The notes beneath the pieces were generated by a model, which was given only the letters and a program-made list of their open reading frames with translations, was not told where the DNA came from and searched no databases. This document shows, piece after piece, positions 7,221 to 28,504 of a stretch of 28,504 nt of DNA. The position numbers and the translations under genes were made by a program. The first letter of the stretch is position 1. Each line of letters begins with the position of its first letter. Source of the DNA: a virus; the IMG/VR virus record IMGVR_UViG_3300014838_001981, positions 1-28,504 of that record, one strand, 5' to 3'.

Positions 7221-7772
7221 CTATGATGTCGGGGCGCCAAAAAGCGCGTATTGAATTGCGACGCGCACCTGTCCGCCTGTGAAATTTCCACCATTTGCGG
7301 TGAACGTTATCGTTGATGGCGCGTACCATGCCGTTGGGCCGACGACGCCGGAATTGATCGAGCCGGCCAAAATCCCGAGATTCGCGCCGAACTGACCGCC
7401 AGTTGCGCCCACGCTACCGTTATAAGCAGTAGTAGCATCGACATTGTAGGAGGTCGCGCCCGTAATCGCTGTGACGACCCGCACGGAAACCGCGAAGATG
7501 ATCGCGCGATTGGGGATTTGAATCGTCGAAACGGCCGAAGCGCCGGACACCGTCACAAGCTCCTCAAGGACGCCGAATTGGATGTACGCCGCGTGCGGAC
7601 TTGGAGAGCAAGGAACTTCGCTCAGCTTCGCTGCGGGGAAGCCGCCCGGAGTCAATCCGTCATGAACTTGGACGCGGTTGTTTGTTGTATCGACAAGGAG
7701 TTCGCCGGCCGCGCCCGTAAATGTCGAAAGAAAGCTTGCCGCCTCACGGCGGCGTTTGACCTGAATGCTCAT
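7221..7772 (-). CDS. Tail fibre protein with Mtd-like N-terminal domain
   Basis: A 183-residue protein. The N-terminus has the pattern RRREAASFLSTFTGAAGELL, then VDTTNNRVQVHDGLTPGGFP. This is the short repeat-type domain found at the start of major tropism determinant and hyaluronidase-like phage fibres. The C-terminal half (from about residue 70) is beta-rich with Gly/Thr/Asn runs and ends TGGQVRVAIQYALF. Its start overlaps the tail-tip gene stop by ATGA (7769-7772), linking it to the tail tip. It probably attaches by its N-terminus and binds a receptor by its C-terminus. It is short for a full fibre, so it may be an adaptor. No C-type lectin fold is evident. Confidence 0.78.
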   Translation of the reverse strand: MSIQVKRRREAASFLSTFTGAAGELLVDTTNNRVQVHDGLTPGGFPAAKLSEVPCSPSPHAAYIQFGVLEELVTVSGASAVSTIQIPNRAIIFAVSVRVVTAITGATSYNVDATTAYNGSVGATGGQFGANLGILAGSINSGVVGPTAWYAPSTITFTANGGNFTGGQVRVAIQYALFGAPTS

Positions 7773-9928
7773 GCCGATGCCAATCCAAGATCTATGATGG
7801 TGACGGAGGAGTCGGATGCGAGGCCGAAATCATCGGTCTCATTGATGCTGGCGCCCGCAAGCCCGTAATCGAGGTTCGAGCCCACAGCCAAGGCAGACGC
7901 GACCGGTCCTTCATAGCCAGCGCCAGTAGGCGTGTAAGTGTAGACCGCACAAGTCGAGATATTTTCGACCGCCTCGCCCCAAATGTTGAAGCTTTGGAAC
8001 TTGAAATAGAGCTTTACGCCGATGCATGCGGGCGGCAGATCATATTTGAAAATCGCGTCATCAAGTCGCGCGAAGGGCGCGCCGGATGAATGCGCCGCCG
8101 CCGTCGTGCCATGGAGCCCACGTTCGAGATAGGTCAGATTATAGGCGTTCGAACCAGTCAGGGTCGCCGCCGCATAGGCCAAGAGCTCCTGATCGACGAT
8201 CAAGAGCGTCACCCCGCTTTGCGCATCGAGATTCGACACGGATGGCAATGCGCCGCCGCTTTCTGCGAGGCTCACTGCGAGCGTGTTGGTCGTGTCCGGG
8301 TTCCCGCCGGAAGGTGCGGCGAGGCTCGCGGTAAGCACGCCCTGCCGCGTCGGCGCCTTGACCATCCCGATCTGGCCATAGGTTGCGTTGTCGAGCGAGA
8401 TATTGACAATCGCGCCGCCCCAATTCGGATCGGCTACGCCGGCGTTGCCGCCCGAGATCGCAATCCAAACTTGCGAAGTCTCGTCTGTCAGCGAAGGCCC
8501 CGGCTCGAAAATAATCGGTGGATTGACCGGGGAAGCGGCAACCCCGCTATCGTATCCGACGCCATTGCTGATCGGAACCTGATAAACCGCCGCCATCGCC
8601 GAGCCGATCAGAAAATCTTCCGCCGTCACGCTCAAGAGGCCCGCGTCATCTTCCTCGATCGATGTTATCCGCACTGGGAAGCTATTCAGACCAAGACCGG
8701 CATCCGTCAGCGCAACGATATCCATCGGCTCCAGCAGGCAGTATTCGAAAGACAGCTTGAACGCATAGGCATTGCGGATGTTGAGGTCGCGTTGAAGGAT
8801 CAATTGCAGCGAGATTTGCGCAACGGCCGGGTCGCAGATCTCATGCGCCGTAACCGTCGACCCTTTGCGGAGCCCGTAAAGCTCTATGGCGTTCTGGTCC
8901 CATGCTTCGATCGGAACCGAACTGTAAGCAACTGACCGCTGCGCTATTTCCATCGTCCGCCAGTTTTTAGCGGTGAAAGGATCCGACCGCGTGATTTGCA
9001 CCGGATCACTGTCATCGTCATGAACAAAATCGTCGTCGGTCAAATTGTAGATCGGCAATGTGTTCGGGTTGAAGGCAATCAATCCGCCTCCATGGAGCGT
9101 CCCCGTTATTGACGTATCTCCATACGGCAGAAATTTAAGCTTGCCCCCGGACCAAATCGCCGCCGTGTTGGTCAATCGCAGCCAGCGGGTCATGATGCTG
9201 CTTGCGGTTTCTTGATTGACGATCGCGGGCGATAATGCGAGCCCAGCCGCCCGGCAATAGGTTTGATAGGACGAATCGCCGGAGGCGCCGAGAAGCGTTG
9301 TCGTATCAATGCTGGCAGGCGGAAATCCGACACCGTATTGCGAGCTCGTGAGAAAGTCTTGGATGACGAGCGCGGGATCCGCGTCATAGCCGTTCACGAC
9401 GGCTGAAGTCGTAGCGGATGATAGGAAGCCATAGACTTCGAACGTGAGCGACGGGAGAGTCGCATCTGCTCCAAGATAGAATTGCGGCGCCGAAAGATAC
9501 GCCAGTCCGCCATAGGGGAGCGATTGGCTCGAATAATAGGTGCTCAGAAATGACCACGGAGCTTGAGGCGTGGTTCCGCTGAAAAAGGACAGGCTCAGGT
9601 CGCCAGGAATTCCGACAGAGGTTCCAGCCCAGGTTTGAGAAACGGTTGTGACTGGCCCTTCGCACAGGCCAAGGATCAGGGCCGTATAATACTGGTATCC
9701 AGATACCTGACTGCTGCTATGGCCGCCCTTGCCGCCGGAACTAGTCTTCGTATATTGGGGGTTGGCGAAAAACCCTCCTTGCCAAATGAGGTTGAACGAA
9801 ATCTTATTGACGCCGTAAAGAATAGGAATTGGGACCCCATTGGTCGAGGTCTGGATCTGCAAGCCGGTATATTCCGGCACATATGCCGGCTGCGCATTGG
9901 CTGCGCCGCTGCCTCGAAGGAAACTCAT
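7769..9928 (-). CDS. Phage tail-tip protein (GTA gp15 C-terminal-like)
   Basis: A 719-residue protein. I chose ATG 9928 (MSFLRGSG), which overlaps the NlpC/P60 stop by ATGA. The N-terminal part has TSTNGVPIPILYG and ALILGLCEGPV, usual for siphophage tail-tip proteins. Further on come ADPALVIQDFLTSSQYGVGF and the conserved-looking RITSIEEDDAGLLSVTAEDF of the Phage-tail_3 type family. The C-terminus has a domain with YLERGLHGT. It builds the tip or hub to which fibres attach. In RcGTA this part is fused behind a TIM barrel in one large protein; here the TIM barrel is in a separate gene four positions upstream. Confidence 0.85.
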   Translation of the reverse strand: MSFLRGSGAANAQPAYVPEYTGLQIQTSTNGVPIPILYGVNKISFNLIWQGGFFANPQYTKTSSGGKGGHSSSQVSGYQYYTALILGLCEGPVTTVSQTWAGTSVGIPGDLSLSFFSGTTPQAPWSFLSTYYSSQSLPYGGLAYLSAPQFYLGADATLPSLTFEVYGFLSSATTSAVVNGYDADPALVIQDFLTSSQYGVGFPPASIDTTTLLGASGDSSYQTYCRAAGLALSPAIVNQETASSIMTRWLRLTNTAAIWSGGKLKFLPYGDTSITGTLHGGGLIAFNPNTLPIYNLTDDDFVHDDDSDPVQITRSDPFTAKNWRTMEIAQRSVAYSSVPIEAWDQNAIELYGLRKGSTVTAHEICDPAVAQISLQLILQRDLNIRNAYAFKLSFEYCLLEPMDIVALTDAGLGLNSFPVRITSIEEDDAGLLSVTAEDFLIGSAMAAVYQVPISNGVGYDSGVAASPVNPPIIFEPGPSLTDETSQVWIAISGGNAGVADPNWGGAIVNISLDNATYGQIGMVKAPTRQGVLTASLAAPSGGNPDTTNTLAVSLAESGGALPSVSNLDAQSGVTLLIVDQELLAYAAATLTGSNAYNLTYLERGLHGTTAAAHSSGAPFARLDDAIFKYDLPPACIGVKLYFKFQSFNIWGEAVENISTCAVYTYTPTGAGYEGPVASALAVGSNLDYGLAGASINETDDFGLASDSSVTIIDLGLASA

Positions 9929-10383
9929 TCGGAAGCCCTTGGCCACAGGGTGAAGAAACGGCGCGGTCGTTTCGGATCGGCAAGCGCAAGGTTGACCGCC
10001 AGAGGCTCTTCGATGACGCAGCCGGCAGGCTGAAAGGCATGAATGATCGTCAGCGGATCGACCTTAGTCACAAGCGCGCCATGGCTGTAGCAGCGGCCGT
10101 AGCGGAAGACAGCAATATCGCCCGGAAGGGGCCTTTCGGTTTCGACGAAACGATCCGTGACATAGCTCAAGTACCGTTCTTCGCTCCGGTGAAGATGCCA
10201 GTCTTCTGGATATGGACGCGGATCAAACGGCGCGAGCAGGCCGCTGTCGACGAAAACGCGGACCAGCAACATTGCGCAATCGGTTCCCGCCCCTTTCACG
10301 TCAGCGCAGGAATGATATCGCGTTCCAGCCCATGTCTTGGCTTCCGCCACAACACGCGGGCGCCCATTGGTCTCCTGAGTCAT
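9925..10383 (-). CDS. NlpC/P60-type tail peptidase (GTA gp14-like)
   Basis: A 152-residue cysteine peptidase of the phage tail-tip NlpC/P60 type. It opens peptide cross-links of peptidoglycan during DNA entry. The catalytic Cys is in GAGTDCAML (Cys36) and the His in CYSHGALV (His101), and the N-terminal AKTWAGTRYHS is typical. The frame stays open further upstream, but that part is the antisense-like shadow of the neighbouring gene, so I chose ATG 10383 (MTQETNG), two bases after the DUF2163-like stop. It overlaps the next gene by ATGA. Order relative to DUF2460 and DUF2163 is that of the GTA cluster. Confidence 0.88.
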   Translation of the reverse strand: MTQETNGRPRVVAEAKTWAGTRYHSCADVKGAGTDCAMLLVRVFVDSGLLAPFDPRPYPEDWHLHRSEERYLSYVTDRFVETERPLPGDIAVFRYGRCYSHGALVTKVDPLTIIHAFQPAGCVIEEPLAVNLALADPKRPRRFFTLWPRASE

Positions 10384-11252: not shown

Positions 11253-11860
11253 GGCTTCACCGATCTAAATTTCAGCGATTGGACTTGCCAAAGGCCGGAC
11301 GTGAAGTTCTCGAAGTCGCTCTGATCGTCGAGGAAGCGGCATTGAAAAGCGAAGGCGAAATCGCCGGCGATAGCCACGCCGACGCCCGGCGGAGTCGTGA
11401 ATGTGAGCGTGTTAGGCGTCGTCAACGTCCATCCTGACGTTTCGACAACGCCGTTGAGATAGATATCCGATACGGCCGTGACCCAAGATACCGGCTCAGT
11501 CGAACCGCCAAGGGTGCGCATAAACGTGAAGGCGGTAGTCGCTCCGTCGCCGGTTGCGATAATCTGACCTGAAACCGAATTATCCGACGGGTCGGTATAG
11601 AGGAAGGTCCCATACTGGCCTTGGCATTGGAGATAGAGCCCCATCAGACTCTGCAAAGAGTTTGAGCCGAGGTTTGGGAAGGCGGCATTTGAGATGAGCG
11701 CATCGAAGGTCAGCTCGAATTCGTAGAGCGGATAGGAATAAAACGGCGTCCTCGCCTCACGGCCCGAGACATGTGAAGCTACGCGCGTTGAATAAGACGG
11801 GCGCTTGTGGACGGACCAGGCTTGGCCTGGCAGCACAGGAAATGACGGCGGAGTGAGCAT
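11249..11860 (-). CDS. DUF2460 distal tail protein (GTA gp12-like)
   Basis: A 203-residue protein of the DUF2460 family that forms the ring between tail tube and hub. It begins PPSFPVLPGQAWSVHKRPSY, has ASHVSGREARTPF, then YEFELTFDALI. After a central beta part comes a galactose-binding-like DGATTAFTF segment. It ends FQCRFLDDQSDFENF and LWQVQSLKFRSVKP. It overlaps both neighbours: TAATG with the TIM-barrel gene and ATGA with DUF2163. It has a clear paralogous copy as the C-terminal domain of the preceding TIM-barrel protein. Confidence 0.88.
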   Translation of the reverse strand: MLTPPSFPVLPGQAWSVHKRPSYSTRVASHVSGREARTPFYSYPLYEFELTFDALISNAAFPNLGSNSLQSLMGLYLQCQGQYGTFLYTDPSDNSVSGQIIATGDGATTAFTFMRTLGGSTEPVSWVTAVSDIYLNGVVETSGWTLTTPNTLTFTTPPGVGVAIAGDFAFAFQCRFLDDQSDFENFTSGLWQVQSLKFRSVKP

Positions 11861-14124
11861 TATTCGCCTTTCACCGTGCGCAGCCTAACTGATTGCGCCT
11901 GCCAAAGCCGAGTCATGAACTGTTCCAAATCTTCCTGATCGTCTGCGAATCGGCAGAGGAAAGTCGACCCGAGTCCGAGTTCTACAGGCACCGGGAAGGT
12001 AAACGGCGAACTTTGTCCGAGTCTCCCCTCAACGAATCCGATCAAGGCTTGCAACTCCGTATATGGCGCATCCATGCGTAAAAGATCGAAGGCGATCGCA
12101 ATTTCAAAGACTGGCGCCGACATACGCGCGAAACGGCTTTGCCGTCCTGAAGCATGTTCAGCCGAGCCGGTTGCGAATTGTGGCTTATAATGAACGCTCC
12201 ATCCCTGACCAGCCAGCGTCGGAAAAGCCGGATACGCCCCTGCCGGCGGCGGGGGATCGGCGATGGGCGGCGCGACGAATGGCCCTTTACCCGAGAGCCA
12301 ATTTCCTGCTGGCCAATTGCCGGCGTCACTCCAAACATTTTCCATTATGGGAAAAACTGGGAAGGGCCGTGCGTCCCAATTCCAGACCGACATGAATGTC
12401 GGCTCGATCATCTTCACGCCCGCGCTGGAGATCTGGTTATTGCCGTCGGTGACCCAATATTCGAAGATCGCCTGCAAGGCGAGAGAGGCGAGCGTTTGGT
12501 CGCGCCGCGGCAAATACCCGCCGCCGTCGGCTGAATCCCAGATCGACCAGAACGGCGTCGCGCTCTCGGTCGATTTGGCGTTGAAGAAGACGTTCGGCTG
12601 GTTCGCACATCGATCGCAGGTCGGAAAGCCATATTCCGTGAAGGTGATCGGCTTCGACTGCGCGATCCATTCCGTCGTCGGGCCGTGCGGCTGCCAGCCT
12701 GCGCCGTCGCCGTCATCATAAACAGCCTGGTGAGAATTGCTCCACCACCAGCGCACCTGCTTGTTCGAGAGCAATTCTTGATTGGCGTAATAAGGTTGAC
12801 GGTTCTGCGCGAGCCGGTCGCCTTCGGGCAACGAGACCATCAGGTCGGAGCCGTTAGGATCGAAGCCGCGTCCAAGATTGTTTGAATCGCTGTAGAACCA
12901 ATTGAACTTCTCGCCGCCTTCGATATTCGCCTTGAGATAGTCCTTACTGTAGATCGTCGGCGTTCCGCTCAGCCCCAAGCCGTTCATCGCGACAGTCGAA
13001 GGCGGCCAAGAAGACGGCTTGGCCACCGACCAATTGAGGACATCGAGGCCGCTAGTTCCTGTCGTCCAATCCGATAGCGGCAAGTAATTGTCGAAACATA
13101 CGAGATCGATATTCGAATGCGCATAGAGCTGATCGAGATGTGGCCATTGGCCATTCTCGCCCAGGTGTTGGCAACCCATCCATGCGGACCAGTCTGCCGC
13201 ATAGCTAATGAGATTGTGGAGGCCCAATGTGTCCTTGCTTAATGAGGCCGCGTCAAAAATCCCGCGCACATCATCAGAAAGTTGGATAAGACCTTGGACG
13301 AATGGATAGTCCCAAATAGCATGGCCGGTGTTGTCGGTGGTCCCCGTCTTTGTCCAAGCGGAACCACGAATCGCTTCGAGACCGCGAAGCTCCGATCCAA
13401 GCAAAAAGAGATCGACGCCGCCTGCGATGACGCAAAGATTAGCATAATGCAGAATCATGCGACGGTAGGTGAAATTGGTCAACGATCCTGCATATGAGAC
13501 TGTCAGGTTCGTCGCATCGCGCGTGAACTGCGAAGCCGCGGCGGATCCGAGGAACGCATTGACGGCGCTGGCCGCATCGGCCGAAATGTCTGGCGCAAAG
13601 GTAATGCGTCCACGCCAAGGAAAACCCGTCGCATCCATCAAAATGAATGGATAGAAGACGACGCGGAACCCGCGCGCCTTCAAATCCTGAATGCACCGGA
13701 CGATTGATTGGTCGGACGGGGTGCCGCCATAGTTGAACGACGGACCATTTGATGAGATCGGAATGAGGCCCGACGAGGCTTGCGTCAAGCTCGTGCATCT
13801 CCACATGTCCGAAACCCAAGCTGTCCCGCTCCATTTCTGGAACGATCCGCCGATATAGGTTGTCGAAGGATAAATCTTGCATTTCGAAGCATCCGTCGAA
13901 TTGCCAAACCAAGAGACGACGACGGCGACCGTCATGCAAGCGGGAAAGGTCGATTCGAGCTGATCGATGGCGAGGTCGAAATCCGTCCTATACGACGGTT
14001 GCCCAGCATAGGCGTTGATCGCCAACATTGCGGGCTCTGTTATGCGTTGACCTTGATAGGCCACGGAGTCGTAGGTAAATTCTCCAGTCGATGGGAGAAG
14101 ATTGACGCCGAGGATATAAGCCAT
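11860..14124 (-). CDS. GTA-type TIM-barrel glycoside-hydrolase-like protein fused to a DUF2460-like domain
   Basis: A 754-residue tail protein. Residues about 1-615 match the GTA TIM-barrel domain: LLGSELRGLE (Glu245), PITFTEYGFPTCDR (Glu497), CANQPNVFFNAKSTES and the end marker WNWDARPFPVFP. In RcGTA this domain is the N-terminal part of gp15 and lies last in the cluster. Here it stands before DUF2460. A Pro-rich linker (617-629) leads to residues 632-754. That part copies the DUF2460 protein encoded next: FPTLAGQGWSVHYKPQF, EHASGRQSRF, FLCRFADDQEDLEQF, LWQAQSVRLRTVKGE. It lacks the central insertion of the full protein. The barrel may cleave wall glycans, as two acidic residues stand in the expected places; activity is not shown. 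Confidence 0.85.
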   Translation of the reverse strand: MAYILGVNLLPSTGEFTYDSVAYQGQRITEPAMLAINAYAGQPSYRTDFDLAIDQLESTFPACMTVAVVVSWFGNSTDASKCKIYPSTTYIGGSFQKWSGTAWVSDMWRCTSLTQASSGLIPISSNGPSFNYGGTPSDQSIVRCIQDLKARGFRVVFYPFILMDATGFPWRGRITFAPDISADAASAVNAFLGSAAASQFTRDATNLTVSYAGSLTNFTYRRMILHYANLCVIAGGVDLFLLGSELRGLEAIRGSAWTKTGTTDNTGHAIWDYPFVQGLIQLSDDVRGIFDAASLSKDTLGLHNLISYAADWSAWMGCQHLGENGQWPHLDQLYAHSNIDLVCFDNYLPLSDWTTGTSGLDVLNWSVAKPSSWPPSTVAMNGLGLSGTPTIYSKDYLKANIEGGEKFNWFYSDSNNLGRGFDPNGSDLMVSLPEGDRLAQNRQPYYANQELLSNKQVRWWWSNSHQAVYDDGDGAGWQPHGPTTEWIAQSKPITFTEYGFPTCDRCANQPNVFFNAKSTESATPFWSIWDSADGGGYLPRRDQTLASLALQAIFEYWVTDGNNQISSAGVKMIEPTFMSVWNWDARPFPVFPIMENVWSDAGNWPAGNWLSGKGPFVAPPIADPPPPAGAYPAFPTLAGQGWSVHYKPQFATGSAEHASGRQSRFARMSAPVFEIAIAFDLLRMDAPYTELQALIGFVEGRLGQSSPFTFPVPVELGLGSTFLCRFADDQEDLEQFMTRLWQAQSVRLRTVKGE

Positions 14125-24308: not shown

Positions 24309-25616
24309 TCACGTCACGCCCCGGCCTTCCGCCTCGCGGCGATAAAATTCGATGATCCCTGCGCCATCATCGGCGCCGAAAAGATGCGTCAGCGCCCAGA
24401 TCGCGGCGTCAGCATGATCGGGGCTGCCGCCGCCGCTGTAGCCAGCCGAGGAAAAGGCGCAGAGCTGATCCTCAAGCTTGCCGAATCGTCCAGCATGATG
24501 AACCTGCCCTTGCGCGTAGCGCACCGAGATCGGCTCGGCTCTCACGGCCTTGCCGCGACTAGCGGCAACGAGACGCACCGGCACATTTTGATCGGCTGCT
24601 TGGATTGTCGCGCGGACCATCTCGCCGCCGAAATTCGACTCGGCGACGATGCAGTCGGCGCGAAATTCGTGAAAGGCGATGACCGCGCGCCTGCCCCAAA
24701 CAATGGGCGCCTCACGACAGGACCGATCGGCGAGAATATAACAATCCCCATCGGCTCCTCGCGCGGCGACAATAATGCCGATTTCATCGGCGCCGAGATC
24801 ATCGCGTCCCGCCGCTCCCGAAGGATCAACGGCGACGACCACGGCGGCCCGCTTTTCCTCCGGGATGTCGTCGAGTCCGCAGCGATTGGAATCGATTTCC
24901 TCATAGGTCCAAAGCGCCCCCTCAACCTCGTCGACATAAACGCCTTCATAGAAACGCTTGCGCTGCTTTTCCGGGAGATCGGCGAGACTCGCCAAGAACT
25001 CTTTCGAAAGATTCGCAACATTGTCAGGCGGGTTCAGGAATGCGCGCCAATAATTTTCAGGAGTCTTGAGCGGCTGCAGTGAAATCGGGTCGCGTTTGTC
25101 CCCGAAAAGCACATTCGTCCAATGTGTCTTGCCAACTGGGTTGAGGTCGACAAAAGCGCACTGGGACAGCCCCGGCGCCACTTGCGCCAGTCGCGTGAAG
25201 GCGATCAACGCGGAGGAATAAGGAATTTGCGACGCTTCGTTCAGGAACACCGTTACATATTCGAGCCCAAGGATTTTCTCGACCCGTTCCTTATCGTCGA
25301 GGCCGCCAATCCATATGCGGGAGCCATTCGGCAGCGCGAAGAATCCATCCTGTCGATGCTCCTTCAAAGATGTGCCTGGAAAACAGAGACGCATGACTTG
25401 AGGGAGCGTATCGAGAGCAATGGAAGCTCGCGCCGCGTTGGCGTGAAGACGTAAGATTGCGTGGCGTGAACATTCGGCTTTGAGCGCACGAATCACTATG
25501 GCTCGAACGATGAGAAACGTCTTGCCTGAGCGAGTGCCGCCGGCGAGACAGGTGTAACGCTGAGGCCCTTCCAGGATGCGGCGAGCCGCATCCTGGCCTG
25601 CGCTAAATGTCACCAT
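24309..25616 (-). CDS. terL: Terminase large subunit
   Basis: A 435-residue DNA-packaging motor. The ATPase has Walker A GGTRSGKT (26-33) and Walker B VTVFLNEAS with Glu127. The RNase H-like nuclease has VAVDPSG (Asp264), ESNFGG (Glu326) and DHADAAIWAL (Asp400, Asp403), so all main catalytic acids are present. The start ATG 25616 has AGGA six bases upstream; a GTG at 25613 is a close alternative. The gene is the first of the late operon. Upstream is the long non-coding repeat region. A gap of 64 bases separates it from the portal gene. Confidence 0.92.
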   Translation of the reverse strand: MVTFSAGQDAARRILEGPQRYTCLAGGTRSGKTFLIVRAIVIRALKAECSRHAILRLHANAARASIALDTLPQVMRLCFPGTSLKEHRQDGFFALPNGSRIWIGGLDDKERVEKILGLEYVTVFLNEASQIPYSSALIAFTRLAQVAPGLSQCAFVDLNPVGKTHWTNVLFGDKRDPISLQPLKTPENYWRAFLNPPDNVANLSKEFLASLADLPEKQRKRFYEGVYVDEVEGALWTYEEIDSNRCGLDDIPEEKRAAVVVAVDPSGAAGRDDLGADEIGIIVAARGADGDCYILADRSCREAPIVWGRRAVIAFHEFRADCIVAESNFGGEMVRATIQAADQNVPVRLVAASRGKAVRAEPISVRYAQGQVHHAGRFGKLEDQLCAFSSAGYSGGGSPDHADAAIWALTHLFGADDGAGIIEFYRREAEGRGVT

Positions 25617-25825: not shown

Positions 25826-25922
25826 AAGCAAGCGCAGGTCGTGCACTGCATACGCGCATATAGCCATAACAATCCGTAGCAAGTCAACGCACCGATGCGG
25901 CGCCGACTTGCGCATTCTTACA
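25826..25922. repeat. 97-bp conserved core repeat, copy 1
   Basis: First of three cores, nearest the terminase. It is identical to copy 2 over 97 bases, by eye. Inside, GCAAGTC (25879-25885) and GACTTGC (25905-25911) form an inverted repeat that encloses CGCA-CCGA-TGCG (25888-25899). On the minus strand TTGACT (25887-25882) looks like a −35 element, with TATATG (25862-25857) 19 bases on. The flanking DNA differs from the other copies on the terminase side. Confidence 0.9.
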
Positions 25923-26470
25923 TGATTTTCAGCGGCGCTGTTGTGTTGTCAGCCAACATGGCGAACGTGACCGCGCTTCTTGTGTGTCTTTTGAAAACGG
26001 CTAAGCCTTACGGCGAACTTGACGGATGCCGCAACGCATCGCCGCCGTTCAACAGCGATGTTGATTGATGCAATGGCGGAGATGTTGCGAGGCGCTCAGA
26101 CGCCTGGATGTCGCGTTGTCTGCGTGACGCCTGTAATTTTAAATGTTTGGAAAGCAAGCGCAGGTCGTGCACTGCATACGCGCATATAGCCATAACAATC
26201 CGTAGCAAGTCAACGCACCGATGCGGCGCCGACTTGCGCATTCTTACATGATCGATTGTAGCGGTGTTGGGTTGCTACTTAATGCAGCGAACGCGCTTGC
26301 GCATCCAGCATTTCTTTTTTAAAACTGCAAGGCTTTACAGTGAATGCAACGGATATCACAACTCATCGCAGCAGTTATGTTGATTGATGCAATGGCTGTG
26401 ATCTTATGAGGTGCGTCAGACGCCTGGATGTCTCATCGCCAGCCTGAAGCCCGCGATTTGAAACGCTGGA
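25923..26470. repeat. Two diverged spacer units of the repeat array
   Basis: The two stretches between cores are themselves related but much more diverged. ATGTTGATTGATGCAATGGC recurs at 26058-26077 and 26377-26396, and TCAGACGCCTGGATGTC at 26096-26112 and 26416-26432, both about 319-320 bases apart. So the array is a duplication of a unit of about 320 bases in which the core stayed nearly identical. The whole stretch has no convincing gene. Confidence 0.8.
26152..26248. repeat. 97-bp conserved core repeat, copy 2
   Basis: Starts 326 bases after copy 1 and matches it over the full core; shared sequence with copy 1 continues four bases further (TGAT). The left flank TGGA is shared with copy 3. 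The same nested inverted repeats are present. Confidence 0.9.
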
Positions 26471-26567
26471 AAGCAAGCGCAGGTCGTGCACTGCATACGC
26501 GCATATAGCCATAACAATCCGTAGCAAGTCAACGCACCGGTGCGGCGCCGACTTGCGCATTCTTACA
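26471..26567. repeat. 97-bp conserved core repeat, copy 3
   Basis: Starts 319 bases after copy 2. One difference was seen: A to G in the central loop, turning CGCACCGATGCG into the perfect palindrome CGCACCGGTGCG. The stem arms are unchanged. Beyond 26567 similarity stops. Confidence 0.9.
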
Positions 26568-26867: not shown

Positions 26868-27383
26868 CTAGAATACGGGAACGCTGCGGGCGTTGAGCCA
26901 ATTCGCCAAATGGTTTAGCGCCTTCGCTCGCTTTCGATAGAATGTGTGCGGCGCCCATTTTTTCTCGACGCAAAGCGCCTTGACCGATCGGCCGCGCGCC
27001 ATGCGCAGCGCCCAGAGGCTCGTAACCAGAGCCATGCCTGAATCCTCGGCGCGCAATTCCCGTAACCAGTCGAAGGCCGTTTCCATTTGCGCTATCTCGG
27101 CGCCGGTCGGCCGGATTGTGGTTCGATTGCTGGCCTGCTCGCGCATGCGCCGCTCGCTCTCGTCGAGTTCCGCTTGCGCCAATTGATCGGCCCATTCGAT
27201 GGCGTGGCGCGGCCAATGCCCACCCGGCTCGCGCGGCCCACGCAAGCGCGGAAGGCGATCGAGCGTGATGAAGGCTTTCACCAGCCTTTTCCCGACATGC
27301 TCCGGCTCCCATTGCGGAGGCACGCTATCGCGCTCCGAACAATAAGACTGCTCGAGCGCATTTATCTTCAAGCCCTCCTCCAT
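26868..27383 (-). CDS. DUF6362-like DNA-binding protein
   Basis: A 171-residue basic protein. ATG 27383 has GGAG upstream and lies two bases after the previous stop; longer frames upstream are Arg-rich shadow. The pattern QWEPEHVGKRLVKAFITLDRLP, HWPRHAIEWADQL, RPTGAEIAQMETAFDWLREL and SVKALCVEKKWAPHTFYRKRAKALNHLANWLN over several segments matches what I know of DUF6362. The end looks like a helix-turn-helix. In other alphaproteobacterial phages it lies near the terminase. It could be a regulator of late genes or a small-terminase-like factor that recognises the repeats downstream; both are inference. Confidence 0.72.
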   Translation of the reverse strand: MEEGLKINALEQSYCSERDSVPPQWEPEHVGKRLVKAFITLDRLPRLRGPREPGGHWPRHAIEWADQLAQAELDESERRMREQASNRTTIRPTGAEIAQMETAFDWLRELRAEDSGMALVTSLWALRMARGRSVKALCVEKKWAPHTFYRKRAKALNHLANWLNARSVPVF

Positions 27384-27385
27384 GA

Positions 27386-27727
27386 TCAAGCTCCGTCGTC
27401 GAGGATATTGTCGAGGAGGGCTGGGTCCGTCGCCACTACAAGGAGCAGCAGTCGAATCATGGATTCGCGCGTGAGGCTGCGTTTCGCCGCCGCGGCGTCG
27501 TAGAGGCTCGCAGCCTCCGGCGGCAGGCGCAAGGCGATGGCGGCGGCGGCGGCGCGAAAGGCGAGACCGAAGCGTTGCGCCTGTCGATGCACATTGTTCG
27601 GCGTCGAGGCGATCAGGGGATCCTCGGCAATCCTTCTCGCGTCCCAACCCAGGCCAAGCAGGAAGCCGAGACGGGCGATTCGCTCCCCTGTCCAGCGGGC
27701 TTTTCGGATCTCAGTTTGAACGGTCAC
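27386..27727 (-). CDS. GcrA-like helix-turn-helix protein
   Basis: A 113-residue protein with GTG 27727 behind AAGGAG at nine bases; a TTG at 27751 is less supported. Residues about 11-52 (WTGERIARLGFLLGLGWDARRIA, then TPNNVHRQAQRFGL) resemble the N-terminal DNA-binding part of GcrA, the alphaproteobacterial cell-cycle regulator that works with sigma-70 RNA polymerase. The C-terminal part (SLTRESMIRLLLLVVA and ALLDNILDDGA) is a short helical region that could mediate dimers. It is the first gene under the divergent promoter, so likely an early regulator. GcrA likeness is by motif only. Confidence 0.7.
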   Translation of the reverse strand: MTVQTEIRKARWTGERIARLGFLLGLGWDARRIAEDPLIASTPNNVHRQAQRFGLAFRAAAAAIALRLPPEAASLYDAAAAKRSLTRESMIRLLLLVVATDPALLDNILDDGA

Positions 27728-27789: not shown

Positions 27790-27819
27790 GGCATACGGTA
27801 GCGCTACCTATATTGTCAA
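27790..27819 (-). promoter_or_regulatory. Divergent early promoter (PR-like)
   Basis: On the minus strand a perfect TTGACA (27819-27814) is followed after 18 bases by TATGCC (27795-27790). Operator dyad 1 (27797-27808) lies inside the spacer, so a bound repressor would block polymerase. It would serve the GcrA-like and DUF6362-like genes with a leader of about 55 bases. Confidence 0.65.
27797..27808. promoter_or_regulatory. Operator site 1
   Basis: GGTAGCGCTACC is a perfect 12-base palindrome in the spacer of the divergent promoter. It shares GGTA....TACC with the next site. Confidence 0.7.
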
Positions 27820-27842
27820 GGTAATTTTACCTGGTGCATTCT
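27813..27842 (+). promoter_or_regulatory. Repressor promoter (PRM-like)
   Basis: TTGTCA (27813-27818) overlaps the −35 of the divergent promoter. After 18 bases CATTCT (27837-27842) follows as a weak −10 with an upstream TG. Operator dyad 2 lies in the spacer. Transcription would begin near 27849, leaving almost no leader before GTG 27848 and 20 bases before ATG 27869. Confidence 0.45.
27819..27832. promoter_or_regulatory. Operator site 2
   Basis: AGGTAATTTTACCT has six-base arms around two central bases. Its centre lies 23 bases from that of site 1, about two helical turns. Confidence 0.7.
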
Positions 27843-27851
27843 AAAAAGTGT

Positions 27852-27867
27852 ACGGTTATTCTACCGT
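27852..27867. promoter_or_regulatory. Operator site 3
   Basis: ACGGTTATTCTACCGT has perfect five-base arms (ACGGT/ACCGT). One base in the GGTA half differs from sites 1 and 2. It lies directly before ATG 27869, where bound repressor could limit its own gene. Confidence 0.65.
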
Positions 27868-27868
27868 T

Positions 27869-28504
27869 ATGGATCTTGAAGACGTCCTCATGCGAATCGA
27901 AAGCCGACTAACGGAGCTGGGCCTCTCAGCTCACGCGGCGTCGATAGCCGCGAAGAAGCCTGACGCCATTCGCAACCTGAAAAGGGCGGTGAAGAATGGC
28001 GAGCGCAGGGGCGTTACGACGGAAACCTTGATCGCGCTCGCGCCGGTGCTGAAGACGACCGCGGCTTGGCTTCTCGAAGGGGTTGGCGAGCCCACGCCGG
28101 GCAACCGCGTTCGCGTCGTCGGACGCATTGGCGCCGGCGCGGAGATCCAGCCCGAATTTGAGCAAATTCCTCCTGAGGGCCTCTATGAAATCGAGGTTCC
28201 TTTTCCCATCGCCAAGGACGCCATCGCCTTTCTGGTCGAGGGCGACAGCATGTGGCCGCGCTATGACCCCGGCGACGTCATCATCTGCTGGCGTCATGGC
28301 GCCGACGCCGACGAAGTTGTCGGTTGGGAGGCCGCTGTGCGCACAGCTGACGGCAAGCGCTATCTAAAGCGGATCCAACGCGGTTCGGCGCCGGGGACCT
28401 TCGATCTCGAAAGCCATAATGCGGCGCCGATCCGAGGCGTGCGGATCGAATGGGCGGCGGAAATACAGGGGGTTGTGCGGTCCGGTCAATGGCGCCGACG
28501 GTAA
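27869..28504 (+). CDS. Phage repressor, XRE helix-turn-helix plus S24 peptidase (CI/LexA-like)
   Basis: A 211-residue repressor keeping the prophage silent. I chose ATG 27869; a GTG at 27848 would add seven residues and overlap operator 3. The N-terminal 70 residues are a helical DNA-binding domain (LTELGLSAHAASIAAKKPDAIRN in two parts, then TLIALAPVLKTTAAWLLEG). The S24 domain has GDSMWPRYDPGD with Ser127 and RYLKRI with Lys167. A likely self-cleavage site is Ala-Gly in GAGAE (89-90), so RecA-stimulated cleavage should induce the phage. It diverges from the GcrA-like gene with three operators between. No usual ribosome site precedes it, fitting a nearly leaderless mRNA. Confidence 0.9.
   Translation: MDLEDVLMRIESRLTELGLSAHAASIAAKKPDAIRNLKRAVKNGERRGVTTETLIALAPVLKTTAAWLLEGVGEPTPGNRVRVVGRIGAGAEIQPEFEQIPPEGLYEIEVPFPIAKDAIAFLVEGDSMWPRYDPGDVIICWRHGADADEVVGWEAAVRTADGKRYLKRIQRGSAPGTFDLESHNAAPIRGVRIEWAAEIQGVVRSGQWRRR

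Follow-up and report, generated by a model that had tools for sequence, protein, structure and literature searches.

Tandem promoter-like cores before terL in a phage with GTA-type tail genes: putative late promoters and a candidate antiterminator

What is the role of three nearly identical 97-nt sequences, set in otherwise diverged DNA directly before the terminase gene terL of a phage? We approached this question computationally in a virus record (28,504 bases), the whole stretch of which is called the window below, and in its relatives among viral contigs. The reading that we favor, to which we give a probability of about 0.55, is that the repeated cores are tandem, Q-like, antiterminator-loaded late promoters of the packaging and structural operon. 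The two parts of this reading differ in strength. That the cores are tandem sigma-70-type late promoters with a long spacer is, judging from their sequence, quite probable. That the DUF6362-like protein encoded next to them acts by antitermination is for us an even bet, which draws on a modest-scoring predicted fold, the gene position and the replacement of this gene by others in the same slot.

The array and its late operon

All late genes of the window are encoded on the minus strand. The first gene of the late operon, terL (24309-25616), lies downstream of the array and is followed by genes for the portal, protease and capsid (the latter two named by position and size, Pfam giving no match for either) and then by GTA-type tail genes, which carry GTA_TIM, DUF2460, Phage-tail_3 and Rcc01698_C domains; those with GTA_TIM and Rcc01698_C are found at 11860-14124 and 7769-9946. 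Directly upstream of the array, also on the minus strand, are the gene of the DUF6362-like protein (26868-27383; 171 aa, PHROG 6836), which is our proposed antiterminator, and that of a small protein of 113 aa with a weakly GcrA-like N-terminus (27386-27727), a candidate activator. An S24-type phage repressor is encoded on the plus strand (27848-28504), divergently from this regulator pair. Between the repressor and the GcrA-like gene, at 27797-27867, there are three short palindromes, GGTAGCGCTACC, AGGTAATTTTACCT and ACGGTTATTCTACCGT, which are probably operators of the S24 repressor. Neither an integrase nor a small terminase was recognised in the window. The window terminates exactly at the stop codon of the repressor and therefore may be a trimmed prophage.

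A direct-repeat search places the cores at 25826, 26152 and 26471, with a spacing of 326 and 319 nt; two copies are identical and the copy at 26471 differs from them at one base (A/G at 26540). A profile made without the window, from the cores of other phages, matches the three cores and no further site here (E about 1e-25 to 1e-27). These matches score 84-88 bits compared to 8.6 bits for the best match in 20 shuffled windows, and the two motifs named box A and the dyad (described below) occur outside the cores of the window no more often than by chance. The functional strand of the cores is minus. In the order of transcription, spacer 1 (26249-26470) is a diverged copy of spacer 2 (25923-26151), their aligned flanking blocks being 74-80% identical, i.e. 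about 20-26% diverged. Thus the earlier note, made from this DNA alone, described the array correctly as three cores with a single base difference and related but strongly diverged spacers, lying between the DUF6362-like gene and terL.

The same note left a choice between a core that is functional and one that was copied recently, and our data speak for both. A 20-nt linker inside the core is 95-100% identical within the window, whereas its mean identity between phages is 33%. Because this linker, which is unconstrained between phages, is also nearly identical, the near-identity of the window cores is best read as the result of recent copying or gene conversion on top of selection for function. 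In another contig (L018) the copies of one array are as unlike each other (54-65%) as copies from different phages.

Relatives were found with a TerL query, which gave 44 loci in viral_contigs, and core copies were gathered by repeated rounds of search with a nucleotide profile. Counting the window, 26 related viral contigs together hold 58 copies; each contig has one to four, all of them on the terL strand and 171 to 671 nt apart. In 25 of the 26 contigs the cores precede terL (truncated in L043), and the nearest starts 155-330 nt before it. The exception, L046, has its core within the late operon, where it lies in the sense direction between the genes of the portal and the protease, beside an extra small gene. 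When 2.9 million viral contigs were scanned with a degenerate motif, 17 stretches matched, all belonging to one TerL family, that of the window, and collections of phage and plasmid DNA contained no match to the array. Many copies scattered through the host chromosome, which the earlier note had named as evidence against its reading, did not appear in a search of GTDB genomes with one exact 20-mer of the core: only two Methanoperedens contig ends were matched, with 23 nt in common and the rest of the core absent, and this link was rejected as chance. Some arrays (L015, L017, L031 and L040) have wide gaps of 600-670 nt between two cores; the gap in L015 holds a reverse-strand ORF of 107 aa (L015:1913-2236, minus), which may be a cargo gene that entered between the putative promoters.

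One would argue that a repeat of this kind is selfish, or that it is a site for replication, partition or recombination, such as a set of iterons, since the motif is non-coding and repeated and its near-identity suggests recent copying. However, the copies keep a single orientation, are tied to the late operon and are absent elsewhere in the window and from unrelated viral contigs, and we consider this explanation extremely improbable. A coding function of the core was also rejected: although many copies share one open frame, the three codon positions are conserved to about the same degree (1.26, 1.14 and 1.10 bits).

Anatomy of the core and of the sequence after it

The alignment of 51 distinct core copies revealed a rigid layout. 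Box A (consensus GTAAGAWnnCGCAA) lies about 60-70 bp before the predicted start and is followed by the linker of about 20 unconstrained bases, after which the terL strand reads TTGAC-tTGCaAC-nn-ATTGYRA-ngg-CTATAT-GCGCGY-R-TGCmGnGcCgaACTGCG. We read this as a -35 element (TTGAC, in 50/51 copies and mostly preceded by A or G, not C), a dyad, a -10 element (CTATAT, the column consensus), a GC-rich discriminator, a purine start (48/51 copies) and about 20 conserved transcribed bases, where conservation ends. The dyad, TTGCRAC-nn-ATTGYRA, is the strongest in the core, with a mean of 3.6 out of 7 pairs compared to a median of 1.7 over all centres tested. The published sigma-70 consensus of the rhizobial species S. 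meliloti is CTTGAC-N17-CTATAT (PMC2873474); the hexamers of the core agree with it except for the first base. The distance from the start of TTGAC to the start of CTATAT is 24 nt in 41 of the 51 copies and 23 or 26 nt in the others, so that most copies have an N19 spacing instead of the published N17, which is compatible with a regulated promoter.

All three window copies follow this layout on the minus strand. Copy 1, the terL-distal one (26471-26567), has box A at 26553-26566, TTGAC at 26528-26532, the dyad at 26512-26527, CTATAT at 26503-26508 and the predicted +1 at 26496; in copy 2 (26152-26248) these elements are at 26234-26247, 26209-26213, 26193-26208, 26184-26189 and 26177, and in the terL-proximal copy 3 (25826-25922) at 25908-25921, 25883-25887, 25867-25882, 25858-25863 and 25851. 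From the last predicted start a leader of about 235 nt would extend to the ATG of terL. The promoter-like layout, the fixed orientation and the location of the L046 core within the late operon support the suggestion of the earlier note that these are late promoter or operator sites, and the core motif would accordingly mark late promoters in the phage group of the window.

The sequence downstream of the predicted starts is not conserved between phages. In three relatives (L031, L032 and L040) textbook terminators follow the terL-proximal core, at about +35 to +65; the window yielded none. Over all spacers, terminators are not enriched: at -10 kcal/mol we counted 13 in sense and 12 in antisense orientation, with 9.5 in dinucleotide shuffles. 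A loose first scan had suggested a general enrichment, which was gone in this stricter one. A -10-like sigma-dependent pause element is not evident either, as no hexamer with A(2)/T(6) lies near +1, though the initially transcribed region is conserved. An elemental-pause motif matches 33/51 copies at a fixed place in the initially transcribed region; it was rejected, other offsets in this GC-rich sequence being nearly as good.

These data also bear on the proposal that a small RNA is made three times, each time transcribed from the spacer with the core as promoter. A promoter-like core is usually followed by 70-330 nt of untranslated DNA, and the terminators of the three relatives would yield RNAs of about 60 nt, so that short terminated leader RNAs are possible there. 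Against it stand the lack of any Rfam family matching the window, the lack of conservation downstream between phages and the lack of a consistent fold after the start, with a mean folding z of only -0.54 over 52 copies; neither spacer 1 nor spacer 2 of the window contains a conserved RNA or a terminator (in spacer 2, on the sense strand). Thus we regard three small-RNA genes as highly improbable. Both spacers of the window contain CCATTGCATCAATCAACAT, and by eye some pairs in them look compensatory; a structure specific to the phage of the window is possible there.

The regulator slot and the candidate antiterminator

The DUF6362-like protein matches PHROG 6836 (E 3.9e-16), a family annotated as of unknown function. 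Its score against Pfam DUF6362 (PF19889), 22.9-24.6 bits, is under the curated cut-off of 31 bits, and therefore we use the name DUF6362-like. A structure model built from 13 relatives has a mean pLDDT of 72.7, and a Foldseek search of the PDB with it gave no significant match. On structural realignment, ranks 1 to 5 were taken by chains of the phage 21 Q protein (Z 7.4-8.0, 104-110 residues aligned within residues 25-171); AlpA came at ranks 8 and 10, and structures of sigma region 4 lay in between. The Q21 fold has a sigma-R4-like HTH core and a packed N-terminal helix. Since Z values up to 8.0 fall within the range where the tool warns of a common helical arrangement, the predicted Q21-like fold, although the closest one found, is suggestive only. 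The most conserved stretch of the protein, at about residues 41-69, is largely modelled as a low-confidence loop that connects helix 1 to the HTH domain; the ring-forming segment of Q21 occupies the matching place, after helix 1 (PMC6606751). The sequence of the protein has no similarity to the Q family: there is no match to Pfam Phage_antitermQ (PF06530), and hhalign with QuuD, a protein of the Q21 family, gave a probability of 0.3%. The neighboring small protein reaches 16.6-17.7 bits against the GcrA family PF07750, under the curated cut-off of 26.9 bits, and E 0.038 against GcrA in the PDB; its structure model was too poor for use.

A DUF6362 gene lies upstream in 15 array contigs. Five records have the array and no DUF6362 gene (L008, L019, L027 and the nearly identical L028 and L029); in these, array and terL stand beside unrelated genes (TPR/glycosyltransferase-like genes and IS fragments), and these records may represent remnants of prophages, or else GTA-like clusters that have their regulators elsewhere. 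The reverse case, DUF6362 without the array, is found in L045. In array-less relatives the slot upstream of a related terL is occupied by a NusG-family gene, i.e. by an unrelated protein family. Such is the arrangement in the S. meliloti pSymB prophage (CP090106), where the NusG-family gene adjoins a GcrA-family gene and is followed by TerS, in the Rhodoplanes plasmid NZ_LR026982, and in L044, which has a 75% identical TerL, a NusG domain (E 6.6e-12) and then TerS; none of the three has a core array. L080 carries a distant DUF6362 protein, then a separate TerS and an unrelated TerL, and L094 and L095 carry a GcrA-like gene, then TerS and TerL, with both the DUF6362 gene and the core absent. 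From the NusG-slot relatives and these contexts we infer that DUF6362 is not the small terminase and that the slot tends to hold a transcription elongation factor. NusG-family paralogues stand upstream of late operons of alphaproteobacterial prophages at L102:1756-2376, L103:2187-2735 and L044:4715-5245; the gap after the one in L102 holds, by eye, two strong terminator-like hairpins.

The same contexts bear on the view of the array as a packaging region (pac/cos) with repeated binding sites for the small terminase, as the earlier note had suggested. The array does adjoin terL and offers several sites in a single orientation. No TerS was recognised in the array phages searched (PF03592 is lacking there, and phrog_309 there and in the window), a result that can be read either way. 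However, the conserved elements match -35 and -10, the spacing of the cores varies from 171 to 671 nt, one core sits between portal and protease genes, the close relative L044 has TerS without an array, and DUF6362 is distinct from TerS, both being present in L080. We therefore judge a packaging function of the array to be quite improbable.

A more serious alternative is that the cores are tandem late promoters under an ordinary activator, without antitermination, the activator being the GcrA-like protein, a sigma-region-4-like DUF6362 or a host factor. The 19-bp spacer and the dyad would then mark activator dependence, as at MerR-type promoters. The promoter motifs fit this explanation equally well, the DUF6362 model also matches sigma region 4 folds, a GcrA-like gene adjoins and terminators are rare. 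It accounts less well for the NusG-family antiterminators filling the slot in relatives, for the strong terminators between core and terL in three relatives and for the best fold matches being Q21. Thus we find this alternative unlikely, though deserving more weight than any of the others.

Our preferred reading remains that of tandem late promoters, probably loaded with the DUF6362-like protein, because a promoter-like layout and an inter-hexamer element are seen, terminators follow the core in three relatives and the logic resembles that of the Caulobacter GTA. RNA polymerase would start at a core; the DUF6362-like protein, encoded immediately upstream, would bind the dyad between the hexamers and join the polymerase; and the two together would pass terminators, or the untranslated leader, and go on to transcribe terL with the rest of the long late operon. 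A part in activation, perhaps at box A, may fall to the GcrA-like protein. The array would then be a variant, probably a new one, of the Q-dependent late promoter. We propose more tentatively, at somewhat less than even odds, that the DUF6362-like proteins (PHROG 6836) form a new family of processive antiterminators with up to four tandem loading promoters before one late operon, which would amount to a lambdoid pR'-Q switch with several ports, used by alphaproteobacterial, GTA-like phages. In this way a function is proposed for an uncharacterised phage protein family, as well as a late-gene switch for a group of phages that have GTA-like tail genes and probably infect Alphaproteobacteria. If true, this offers a natural test of why a phage repeats its late promoter, and two unrelated antiterminators, one Q21-like and one NusG-like, occupy one slot.

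Comparison with known antitermination systems

Q-type systems combine a promoter ahead of the late genes, an inter-hexamer element to which the antiterminator binds, a pause close to the transcription start and a terminator that has to be overcome; the elements of Q and AlpA and the putative one of GafZ are all located between -35 and -10 (PMC6606751, PMC9371919, PMC11150451). The pR'-Q arrangement of phage 21 and the lambdoid phages (PMC6606751) is alike in having the promoter just before the late genes, the regulator gene immediately before the promoter, the element between -35 and -10 and the same operon logic, to which the predicted Q21-like fold of the regulator may be added. In contrast, there are one to four tandem promoters here and usually one there, the hexamers here are of the alphaproteobacterial type, and a dyad takes the place of the 6-bp direct repeats. 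A clear -10-like pause element and sequence similarity to Q are both lacking here, and the leader of the window is long and without a terminator.

The alpB promoter of Pseudomonas aeruginosa with its antiterminator AlpA (PMC9371919) likewise has an inter-hexamer element, an antiterminator with a Q21-like fold (predicted in our case) and a terminator downstream of the promoter (here in some relatives). However, the AlpA element is a single GGGACG, and the -10-like CACGAT at -1 to +5 of that promoter is without a counterpart here.

The Caulobacter GTA with GafY and GafZ (PMC11150451) also has an alphaproteobacterial, GTA-like late cluster under a repressor, an activator and an antiterminator, albeit with unrelated proteins; GafZ is reportedly unlike any known antiterminator in structure (PMC11150451). 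IHF is required there, and GafY binds further upstream. As in the window, the putative antiterminator element lies between -35 and -10, and repeats are found nearby, three of 150 bp. Those repeats are a terminator, whereas the ones described here contain the putative promoters.
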